From assembly GCF_017355915.2 (NCBI RefSeq), contig NZ_JAFEUV020000014.1, positions 95,061 through 159,060 on the forward strand: a stretch of DNA of 64,000 nt. Direction: 5' to 3'. The position numbers and the translations under genes were made by a program. Below, in pieces: positions 6,623 to 9,913 of this stretch (position 1 is the first letter of the stretch; every line of letters starts with the position of its first letter). The stretch comes from Telluribacter roseus. Its GTDB lineage: Bacteria; Bacteroidota; Bacteroidia; Cytophagales; Spirosomataceae. The notes below the pieces were generated by a model that was given only the letters and a program-made list of their open reading frames with translations, was not told the DNA's origin and did no database searches.

Positions 6623-9600
6623 TTAACGTAATTGATAAATGCGCACCAGCTTCTTGATTTCGTCCAGCGTGCGGGTAGGCTTGGGCAGGTCAGCGGGGAT
6701 AGGGCGCTTGGAGTACGTCTGGAAGTACAGCACGCAGGCGTCGCGCCACCACTCGGCTTCCCGCTTCTGGATCTGCAGGCGGCCCGCCACATCAGCGTAT
6801 AGTTCGGGATCTACGGAGTCCTTCACGCTGTCCCACTGCCGGATCATCTGCTCCACCGACTTTACGCCACCGTAGTAGCGGTAGCAAAGTTCTTCCCACA
6901 AGCTACGCCCATTAGCCATCTTGTGCGACCAGGGTACATGGTGAAACCAGAGCAGGTACTTGTCCGGCGTGGTTTCCAATACTCCCCACTGCTGCTGCAA
7001 CTCCGGCGTGTACTGCGAAAGGGCGTTGGAGCCGGTTTTGGTACGGTCGAAGCCAATACCCTGCGCATCGGCGCGGTGGTAGTAGAGGGAAGTCCAGTCG
7101 GGACGTTGGCTCTTCTCCAGCCAGGGCTGCGGCCCGTAGTGGATACTTTCGCCCATGATGTGGTGCAGCCCCAGGGGCGTCATGTAGTTAACCGCCGCCT
7201 CCCGCGATTCCATCAAGATATTTTTAATGGTAGCCACCACCTGCGGCTGGCGGGTGAGCGTCATCTTGATCCACTCCTCGGCGATCTGCTCTGACGACAA
7301 AGTATGGTCCCACGCCAGCCGCCCGTAGGCGTACCAGTTGGCCTGCCCCACGGGGTGACCGGTCCAGTTGCGGTCGGAGCCGACATTGGATACACCAGCC
7401 ATGCCGGTATGGTTGTAGCCATGAAGGCTTCCATCCACTACCTCGGCTACCGTAGAGCCAAGACCTTTGATGTAGGTGTCGCTGTCGAGGGTTTCTTTAA
7501 AGAGTGGCGCCTCGTACACCAGGTGCGTAGCAAAGCCCAGGTACTCCTGCGTAAGCTGAAACTCCATCATCAGGGGCGTTTGGGGCATCTGGCCGAACAG
7601 CGGGTGAAAGGGCTCGCGGGGCTGGAAGTCAATGGGACCATTCTTGACCTGTACCAGTACCTTCGGGTCAAACTGTCCGTCGAAGGGCTTGAACTCCTCG
7701 TAACCTGCCTTGTAGCGGTCGCCGTTGGGGTCGGCTTTGTAGACAAAGGCCCGCCACATCACAATGCCATCGTAGGGCGCCAGCGCCTTAGCCAGCATAT
7801 TGGCCCCGTCGACGTGGGTTCGGTTGTAGTCCTGCGGACCGGGCTCGCCTTCTGAATTGGCTTTCACCACAAACCCACCAAAGTCCGGAATGATGGAATA
7901 AATCTCCTTCACCTTCTCGTTCCACCACTGCTGTACGGCCGGGTCCAGCGGGTCGGCGGTGGGCAGACCACCCACGTTGCGCGGCGCCGTAAAGCGCACC
8001 GACAGGTACACCCGAATGCCGTAGGGACGAAATACATCCGCCAGAGCCTTCACCTTGTGCAGGTACTCGGCCGTCATGAAGCGGGCGCTGGCGTTGACGT
8101 TATTGACTACCGTGGCGTTAATGCCGATGGAAGCGTTGGCGCGGGCGTACTCCTTGTAGCGCGGGTCAATGACCTGCGGCAGGTCGTACCACTTCCAGAT
8201 GGACGAGCCTGCGTAGCCCCGCTCCACAGTACCGTTAGGGTTGTCCCAGTGATTGAGCACGCGGTACTGTACCTTGGGACTGGTAGTAATATTCAGCTCC
8301 GACAGCGGGCGCAGGGTCTGCAGGTGACGCAACAGCCCGAAGCTCCCGTACAGCAGGCCTTTTTCGGACTTAGCTGCTATGATAGTTTGGTTGCCTTTGC
8401 GGTAAATGTGGTACCCTTCCGGCCCTACTTGTTCCTGCTCATCCAATTGAAATACAATATCACCTTTACCCGAAGTCTGCTTTTGCACACTGACTTTGGT
8501 ACCTACTAACCCCTGCAAACCCGTCTGCAGCTCCTCCACGGCTACCTGCCGCATGGGGGAGTTTTCGGTATTGACGATGGAGGTAAAGGCAGTGGCGTAG
8601 GCCCGCTGCAGGGCCGCATCCTGTATCCGGTCGTATTTGAGCCAGAGGCGGTAGCCGTCGTCGGCTTGGGTACTTGGGGCTACCAGCATACCTACCAAAA
8701 GGAATACCAGCGCCAGCGAGCGCCGGATGGCCAGCTCCATACCGCGTAATTCGGCCAGCCCCTTGAGGCGGCCAATGGCCGAGTAGCCGGGGTAGGTGGT
8801 TTTGTGGAGGTCGTCCAGCATCTGGTGACCGTGGTCGGGGCGCATGGGTAGTGCGCTGTCGGGGCGGCCGGCCTGCTGCCGTCGCTGCTGTTCGAGAGTC
8901 AATTCTTTCATAACGCTATACATATCTACATCGCCGGTCAGGTGGTCGGCTTCGTGAAAATTACGGGGCTCATCAGCATCGCGCTTTGTGGAGCGCAGAT
9001 GCACGAAGTGGATCCGGTTGCCCAGGCGCTGTACCATACCCGGGAGGTCGTTGTCGGCCCGGACACCCAGCGAGCCGGTGCAGAAGGTAATGCCATTGGC
9101 CCGGACGGGGCAGGCATTCATCAGCGCCTGCAGATCGGCTTCGGTACTTACCACGCGGGGCAGCCCCAGCAGCGGACGCGGCGGATCGTCGGGGTGGATG
9201 CACAGCCGTACGCCCAGCTCCTCCGCCACGGGTGCTACCTGCTGCACAAAGTAGTGCAGGTTGGCGCGGAGGGCGTCGGCGTCTATATCTTTATAAGTAT
9301 CCAGCAGGGACTGAAAGGTAGCCAGCTCGAAGGCCTCTTCCGAACCCGGCAACCCCAGCAGTACCGTCGCGGTCAGCGTCCGGAGTTCTTCCTCCCCCAT
9401 CGACTCAAACCGCCGCCTGGCCCGCCCGATGGTATCAGCATCGTAGTCCTGCTCCGCACCGGGGCGCTTCAGGATGTGGAGGTCAAAGGCCACAAACTTC
9501 TCCCATTCAAAGCGAAGCGTACGGGCACCGTTGGGTAGCTGGTATACTACATCCGTCCGTGACCAGTCCAGTACCGGCATGAAGTTGTAGCACACGACCT

Positions 9601-9913
9601 GTATGCCGCAGGCCGCCAGGTTCCGCAGCGACTGCTTATAGTTTTCAATGTACTGCTCGCGCGAAGGCAGGCCCTTCTTGATATCCTCGTGGACGGGAAG
9701 GCTTTCCACCACCAGCCACCGCAGCGGCGTTACTGCCTCCGGAGCCTGTTCGATCAGTTGCTGCCGCTCCCGTATAGCCTCCACTGACCATACCTCTCCG
9801 ACGGGTAGTTGGTGCAGGGCCGATACTACTCCTTCACAGCCTGCCTGCCTAATATCGTGAAGCGAAACGGGGTCCTTCGGCCCGAACCAGCGCATAGTTT
9901 GTATGAAAGGCAT
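6623..9913 (-). CDS. Fused mannonate dehydratase (UxuA) and GH67 alpha-glucuronidase
   Basis: One uninterrupted 1096-residue frame encodes two enzymes. Residues 1-398 are mannonate dehydratase (D-mannonate to 2-keto-3-deoxygluconate): MRWFGPKDPVSL start, metal-ligand candidates His240 (CIHPDD), Cys278 (FCTGSLG), His305 (HFVHLR) and Asp360 (RPDHGH), and the usual C-terminal GRLKGLAELRGMEL. From Met392 a signal peptide (MELAIRRSLALVFLLVGM...STQA) leads into a complete GH67 alpha-glucuronidase, which removes (4-O-methyl)glucuronate from xylan fragments. Catalytic-region motifs are NSEGEPGP (about 687-694), Asp762 in NGPIDFQPREP and Glu790 in QLTQEYLG. No stop separates the parts. Whether it is made as one chain or GH67 starts internally at 8740 is open. 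The LacI operator lies upstream. Confidence 0.9.
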   Translation of the reverse strand: MPFIQTMRWFGPKDPVSLHDIRQAGCEGVVSALHQLPVGEVWSVEAIRERQQLIEQAPEAVTPLRWLVVESLPVHEDIKKGLPSREQYIENYKQSLRNLAACGIQVVCYNFMPVLDWSRTDVVYQLPNGARTLRFEWEKFVAFDLHILKRPGAEQDYDADTIGRARRRFESMGEEELRTLTATVLLGLPGSEEAFELATFQSLLDTYKDIDADALRANLHYFVQQVAPVAEELGVRLCIHPDDPPRPLLGLPRVVSTEADLQALMNACPVRANGITFCTGSLGVRADNDLPGMVQRLGNRIHFVHLRSTKRDADEPRNFHEADHLTGDVDMYSVMKELTLEQQRRQQAGRPDSALPMRPDHGHQMLDDLHKTTYPGYSAIGRLKGLAELRGMELAIRRSLALVFLLVGMLVAPSTQADDGYRLWLKYDRIQDAALQRAYATAFTSIVNTENSPMRQVAVEELQTGLQGLVGTKVSVQKQTSGKGDIVFQLDEQEQVGPEGYHIYRKGNQTIIAAKSEKGLLYGSFGLLRHLQTLRPLSELNITTSPKVQYRVLNHWDNPNGTVERGYAGSSIWKWYDLPQVIDPRYKEYARANASIGINATVVNNVNASARFMTAEYLHKVKALADVFRPYGIRVYLSVRFTAPRNVGGLPTADPLDPAVQQWWNEKVKEIYSIIPDFGGFVVKANSEGEPGPQDYNRTHVDGANMLAKALAPYDGIVMWRAFVYKADPNGDRYKAGYEEFKPFDGQFDPKVLVQVKNGPIDFQPREPFHPLFGQMPQTPLMMEFQLTQEYLGFATHLVYEAPLFKETLDSDTYIKGLGSTVAEVVDGSLHGYNHTGMAGVSNVGSDRNWTGHPVGQANWYAYGRLAWDHTLSSEQIAEEWIKMTLTRQPQVVATIKNILMESREAAVNYMTPLGLHHIMGESIHYGPQPWLEKSQRPDWTSLYYHRADAQGIGFDRTKTGSNALSQYTPELQQQWGVLETTPDKYLLWFHHVPWSHKMANGRSLWEELCYRYYGGVKSVEQMIRQWDSVKDSVDPELYADVAGRLQIQKREAEWWRDACVLYFQTYSKRPIPADLPKPTRTLDEIKKLVRIYQLR
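8660..8740 (-). other. Internal signal peptide and alternative GH67 start inside the fused gene
   Basis: The ATG at 8740 (Met392 of the fused frame) begins a textbook export signal: basic n-region MELAIRRS, hydrophobic core LALVFLLVGMLV, and an STQA cleavage region before DDGYRLW. Translation from here would give a 705-residue periplasmic alpha-glucuronidase of normal GH67 length. The same residues also look like the normal C-terminus of UxuA (GMELAIRRS), so the two genes share about nine codons instead of being separated by a stop. Confidence 0.7.

Follow-up and report, generated by a model that had tools for sequence, protein, structure and literature searches.

An in-frame UxuA-GH67 fusion with a predicted internal signal sequence in Telluribacter roseus and related bacteria

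Introduction

Metabolic enzymes that act within the cell and those that act beyond it are as a rule encoded by separate genes. Two described bacterial systems come close to an exception. The cytochrome b/c1 precursor FbcH of Bradyrhizobium is synthesized as one chain from which two proteins are released by signal peptidase cleavage at an internal signal, and the proteins ToxR and CadC combine a large cytosolic N-terminal domain with one membrane segment and a periplasmic C-terminal domain. In this study, a 64,000-nucleotide stretch of the Telluribacter roseus genome (RefSeq assembly GCF_017355915.2, contig NZ_JAFEUV020000014.1, positions 95,061 to 159,060; in the following referred to as the window) was analyzed with respect to one gene on its reverse strand (6623..9913), in which the coding sequence of a predicted mannonate dehydratase (UxuA) continues in frame into that of a predicted alpha-glucuronidase of glycoside hydrolase family 67 (GH67).

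The two FbcH products belong to a single membrane complex as its subunits, whereas the T. roseus gene would join a soluble cytosolic enzyme to an exported hydrolase from which it is separated by further metabolic steps. Likewise, ToxR and CadC are sensors with stable anchors, whereas the fusion comprises two enzymes connected by a short, cleavable-looking segment. The original prediction for this locus had held that a single chain cannot obviously be in both places, a statement that is too strong in view of N-in/C-out proteins with large cytosolic N-terminal domains such as ToxR and CadC. In relatives of T. roseus, adjacent uxuA and GH67 genes (e.g., loci L010, L047 and L167) encode the same enzymes in the same order, the GH67 enzyme carrying its own signal peptide; unlike the fusion, these loci feature a stop codon, 55–107 bases to the codons of the mature GH67 and a separate GH67 start. 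No account of a UxuA-GH67 fusion was found in a literature search aimed at it, in which subscription journals were thinly covered.

Results and Discussion

Two complete enzymes are encoded in one open reading frame

The fusion gene extends from its ATG at 9913 to a TAA stop codon ending at 6623 and comprises 1,096 codons plus the stop, with zero internal stops. Pfam analysis of the fusion protein assigned residues 5–397 to UxuA (PF03786, 425 bits; 8723..9901), followed by the GH67 N (423–526), M (532–850; 503 bits) and C (851–1075; 320 bits) domains in the expected order. Moreover, the NCBIfam uxuA model TIGR00695 matched residues 5–399 with 542 bits, exceeding its curated cut-off of 199.55. 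Based on Pfam and on alignment to the structures 1gqi and 1h41, the GH67 part was assigned to residues 418–1096 (6626..8662). The first residue of 1gqi, the closest solved GH67 chain, aligns with Asp418, a chain start that the choice of construct could also explain; the mature GH67 enzyme should begin at this residue.

Within the UxuA part, His240, Cys278, His305, Asp360 and the following His361, which we take to be the metal-site residues, were invariant in all 28 fused proteins compared. The same applies to Glu688, Asp762 and Glu790 of the GH67 part, presumably the catalytic acid/base carboxylates, of which Glu688 aligned to the residue changed in 1h41. The halves are thus a predicted mannonate dehydratase and a predicted alpha-glucuronidase, both full-length and with the checked active-site residues intact. 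These results bear out the original prediction of a stop-free frame of 1,096 codons covering a full UxuA, with His240, Cys278, His305 and Asp360 present, and a full GH67.

The hinge between both enzymes is composed like a signal sequence

The UxuA part is connected to GH67 by the linker GMELAIRRSLALVFLLVGMLVAPSTQA, which is followed by DDGYRLW. Within it, a Sec-type signal was predicted for residues 392–417 (8663..8740), consisting of the n-region MELAIRRS contributed by the UxuA tail, the h-region LALVFLLVGMLVA and the c-region PSTQA. As the original prediction had stated, Met392 (codon 8740–8738) opens this export-type signal within the UxuA C-terminal motif GMELAIRRS, directly after which the hydrophobic stretch begins; it ends with TQA immediately before DDGYRLW. 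The predicted signal peptidase I cut lies between Ala417 and Asp418 (8662..8663, the Ala417 codon ending at 8663 and the Asp418 codon beginning at 8662). By sequence inspection, the N-terminus of UxuA (Met1) lacks a hydrophobic signal.

The features expected for Sec-dependent export and signal peptidase I processing were all observed, namely a basic n-region, an uncharged h-region, a small or aliphatic residue at position −3 and Ala at −1. Among the 28 fused proteins, position −1 was Ala in each case (28/28), position −3 was always T, S, A, V, L or M, and position −2 was free, with K or R in 19 of them. In comparison with signals of unfused GH67 proteins, the mean of the best 12-residue hydropathy was 2.69 (20 fused loci) versus 2.61 (68 unfused loci), and Ala occupied −1 in 20/20 versus 54/68, after 32 mostly duplicate or distant loci had been dropped and with the true cut mis-marked by the alignment in a few unfused rows. 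Hinge runs without charged residues, H, N, Q or P were 10–17 residues long, a length that is signal-like and short for a stable membrane anchor. Between genomes G000 and G001, 15 of 21 hinge residues were identical, compared with 382/396 for UxuA and 641/679 for GH67. The predicted signal hence drifts fast while its pattern is kept, as in free signal peptides, and retains the marks of a putative cleavable Sec signal. Regarding the UxuA tail, an acidic residue at positions 4–9 after the conserved RG was present in 0/20 fused versus 15/39 unfused genes (p 0.001), with mean net charges of 1.35 and 0.69, respectively; the fused rows are related, so that these p-values are too small and the independence of the 0/20 versus 15/39 contrast is overstated. 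The direction of this contrast points toward a UxuA tail that may have been converted to an n-region.

The fusion is shared by part of the family

The protein search yielded 27 further near full-length fused proteins with identities of 62–94%, among them those of Dyadobacter frigoris and Arundinibacter roseus. The genome search covered 222 genomes of the family and detected the unbroken fusion frame in at least 20 of them, representing 10 genus codes; this number is a lower bound, and the species of the genome and protein sets overlap in part. The family search proposed along with the original prediction was therefore positive, and the same fusion is present in Telluribacter humicola (95% identity). 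Relatives with separate genes and a stop at this place, which had been named beforehand as evidence against the fusion, do exist in one part of the family, whereas in another part the fusion is real. Three genomes (G029, G154 and G201) contain full-length matches with a stop at the hinge. Furthermore, 18 GH67 matches with open frames above 1,100, other than the fused ones, occurred among the matches listed, and all of the 17 inspected (all but G153) were split. In many relatives, uxuA and GH67 are adjacent in the same order with a stop between them, mostly 55–479 bases from the mature GH67 codons; three loci, one of them present twice, showed a wider spacing of 889–1,684 bases.

Trees were calculated quickly and under one model for GH67 (96 rows, without named duplicates, some distant loci and copies of at most 600 residues), UxuA (58 rows) and both parts jointly (58 rows). 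Every tree required at least four changes between the fused and the split state, given 20 fused versus 38–39 split rows, and the GH67 tree required six if all 76 non-fused rows were scored as split; such counts cannot separate gains from losses. A single origin, tried as a single clade of all fused rows, is compatible with the UxuA tree alone (approximately unbiased test, p-AU 0.238) and is contradicted by the joint UxuA and GH67 tree, which rejects this clade (p-AU 0.0174). This joint tree distributes the fused rows over four positions. One holds Telluribacter together with G006 and G203, the second is a six-member Dyadobacter-like clade, the third is G012, and the fourth unites G030 and the Aquirufa-like clade g13. 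Several fusions, or one fusion with several fissions, would both fit the trees. Judged by sequence comparison, the fusion is old, long-lived and common to part of the family.

Two free GH67 genes (L154 and L155 of genomes G204 and G206) were placed as sisters to the fused gene of G203 in the GH67 tree (support 98), and their signals end in the shared ARADDG motif or something close to it. It is possible that both are fission products left after loss of UxuA.

Proposed mechanism and alternative explanations

For the T. roseus protein, synthesis as one chain, N-in/C-out insertion by the Sec system with UxuA inside and GH67 outside, and signal peptidase I cleavage after Ala417 are proposed as the probable course, albeit with some reserve. 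The ribosome would produce a single 1,096-residue chain, UxuA would fold in the cytosol, and its basic tail AIRRS would serve as the n-region that a free GH67 enzyme would carry itself. Sec would then take up the short hydrophobic segment in N-in/C-out orientation, only GH67 would cross the inner membrane, and signal peptidase I would cut after Ala417. Expected products are a 679-residue periplasmic alpha-glucuronidase and, on the inner side of the membrane, a UxuA of 417 residues ending in a short hydrophobic tail. Cleavage is clearly favoured over a stable anchor, since the −3/−1 pattern is kept and the predicted hydrophobic core is short.

Several observations weigh against this course of events. 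According to a yeast study (PMC8277137), longer n-regions lower signal peptidase cleavage, so that the chain could remain uncut. Furthermore, an AlphaFold model (mean pLDDT 74.3), used only to view the hinge helix, features one helix from UxuA into the hinge (residues 379–408) at low local confidence (block pLDDT 36–66). Spc1, the yeast subunit concerned in the n-region work, is not known from bacteria. Finally, 13 of the 20 fused genes, that of T. roseus included (ATG at 8740), contain ATG, GTG or TTG within nine codons after the conserved RG, and the nearly invariant Met365 upstream represents a further possible start, from which the n-region would be very long.

An unlikely, though the most serious, alternative is an uncut transmembrane enzyme, in which the hinge would act as a signal anchor and a 1,096-residue protein would expose UxuA on the cytosolic and GH67 on the periplasmic face. 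The n-region effect in yeast (PMC8277137), the positive charge on the cytosolic side of the hinge, the continuous helix of the low-confidence model and the precedent of N-in/C-out membrane proteins such as ToxR and CadC are in line with it, whereas the invariant Ala at −1 (28/28), the conservation of the −3/−1 pattern amid drift elsewhere in the hinge, and runs of just 10–17 residues without charged or strongly polar residues argue for a cleaved signal. A second reading, given a still lower probability, assumes two starts, one product being made from 9913 and a GH67 precursor with a normally cut signal from a start at or near 8740. The ATG of Met392 (8738..8740) would indeed yield a good signal peptide, and in fusions of UxuA to DctP binding proteins (see below) Met is found at residue 2 after RG in 13/14 sequences versus 2/106 of the nearest unfused relatives, so that the mechanism may hold there. 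For GH67, a kept internal start would be expected if the enzyme were made from it. However, start codons within nine codons after RG were not enriched (ATG, GTG or TTG in 13/20 fused versus 26/39 unfused genes, p=1; ATG alone in 10/20 versus 16/39, p=0.59; 11 duplicate or cut loci excluded), which makes an internal start improbable as a family mechanism. The position of the internal ATG varies among fused genes (codon 1, 3, 8 or 9), and in 7/8 species of clade g13 no start codon was found in these nine codons, the eighth having TTG. Moreover, upstream GC content is 55% at the 13 candidate sites and their folding energy averages −9.2 kcal/mol, as opposed to 33% and −2.0 (39 GH67) or −3.0 kcal/mol (55 uxuA) for native starts of the same loci, a contrast that reflects in part coding versus non-coding sequence. 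Neither a conserved internal start nor a native-like context was thus found, and a full-length chain would still be produced. The double start (9913 and 8740) of the original prediction is accordingly unlikely as a family mechanism, and Met392 is judged improbable as the export start, although an internal start could add GH67 product in a single species, including T. roseus itself. It is very unlikely that GH67 is not exported at all and acts in the cytosol on imported oligosaccharides, with the hinge as a relic linker: some GH67 enzymes, e.g., of Geobacillus, are intracellular, but rapid sequence change has left the hydrophobic core and the Ala at −1 in place in all 20 fused loci and all 28 fused proteins. 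Least credible is an assembly error or a recent loss of the stop codon, as also considered originally. Relatives in which a stop separates the two genes would permit it, but for the family it is refuted by the occurrence of the fusion in at least 20 species (at least 20/222 genomes) of 10 genera, including T. humicola.

Further fusions of UxuA to exported-type partners

Among the best 120 of 157 hits of the protein search, 80 (P0042–P0121) came after the GH67 matches, fused or free, in rank, and more than 100 residues followed UxuA in 70 of them according to our own alignment, in which P0050 and P0074 align poorly. An exported-type partner behind a signal-like hinge was recognized in 26/70, comprising seven M1 peptidases, five GH35 galactosidases and 14 DctP binding proteins, whereas the remaining 44 carried mostly short-chain dehydrogenase/reductase (SDR) enzymes and some kinase-like, UxaC, UxuB or other partners. 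This call was made by partner family and signal layout; hydropathy alone was discarded as a mark of exported partners, since hinges of cytosolic SDR fusions reach 1.8–2.3 on the same measure.

In all 12 M1 and GH35 fusions (P0043–P0049, P0051, P0053, P0056, P0061 and P0070), Ala or Gly precedes and Gln follows the predicted cut. This agrees with the pattern described in a study on Bacteroidetes (PMC5837995), whose signal peptidase I mostly exposes glutamine, and the GH67 fusion has Asp there instead. The UxuA-DctP (TRAP-type) fusions (P0060, P0063–P0066, P0068, P0069, P0071–P0073 and P0075–P0078) were found by sequence reading to contain a lipobox-type Cys in 13/14 cases, the exception P0066 looking frame-shifted, and internal initiation may occur in them. 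All three fusion types resemble UxuA-GH67 in that the UxuA tail runs straight into the signal-like stretch of an exported-type partner; they differ in the partner itself and, for 13/14 DctP fusions, in the lipoprotein-type Cys. They are known here from protein records alone, and a search of 395 class genomes (E 1e-150) gave no UxuA-M1 match covering both parts. As a tentative idea, rated here as somewhat doubtful, the C-terminal helix of UxuA may represent a reusable launch pad whose basic end serves as n-region: uxuA and an exported gene (GH67, M1, GH35 or DctP) would repeatedly have become self-sorting polyproteins with one enzyme on each side of the membrane and UxuA tethered inside.

Gene neighbourhood and metabolic context

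An SDR oxidoreductase gene (5839..6603, reverse strand, GTG start inferred) is located 19 bases 3' of the fusion stop and possibly encodes the fructuronate reductase step. Of the 20 fused genes, 17 have a similar SDR gene nearby, and none was seen at L003, L007 and L037, the last lying at a contig end; the value of 16/49 for unfused loci is an unfair control, as many stretches end soon after GH67. A LacI-family regulator gene (10216..11367, forward strand) is oriented divergently. Between it and the fusion gene, a perfect 40-base palindrome without strand assignment (10050..10089; TAGCTATCGGTATCGTTTTCGAAAACGATACCGATAGCTA) was identified, which is likely an operator. The palindrome also occurs in locus L002 of the sister genome, and the same pattern was not found in L003, L005, L006, L007 and L169. 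The N-terminal extension of the regulator (10216–10330) has a CxxC...CxxC zinc-ribbon look (MIECVKCGQVDAIKRAGFVRGKQRFHCRHCSYHF) and presumably resembles transposase N-termini; Pfam reported no named domain in it. Regulator matches from residue 1 adjoin the fusion in L002, L005, L007 and L033.

Within the T. roseus genome, the fusion is the sole full-length GH67 match. Another UxuA, 60% identical, is encoded in an apparent standard hexuronate operon together with a glucuronate isomerase, an MFS transporter, a 2-keto-3-deoxygluconate (KDG) kinase and an aldolase, as named by sequence reading. The fusion is accordingly predicted to supply GH67 and a second UxuA. Import, isomerisation and reduction lie between the GH67 product and the UxuA substrate, and in consequence of the intervening importer, isomerase and reductase, substrate channelling is not expected. 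The close tie between methylglucuronate release and its catabolism originally proposed for this gene is weakened by the same pathway steps. Equal supply of two pathway enzymes would suffice as the simplest benefit, or a fusion that arose by chance and was retained through a functional signal would be enough.

Implications

Retained in ten genera, a fusion across the divide between inside and outside provides a naturally occurring model for studying how a signal behind a folded enzyme of 390 residues is dealt with by Sec and signal peptidase. It also raises the question whether cellular polyproteins are more common in bacteria than annotation suggests, and exported enzymes of this kind would be overlooked by signal-peptide prediction restricted to the N-terminus.

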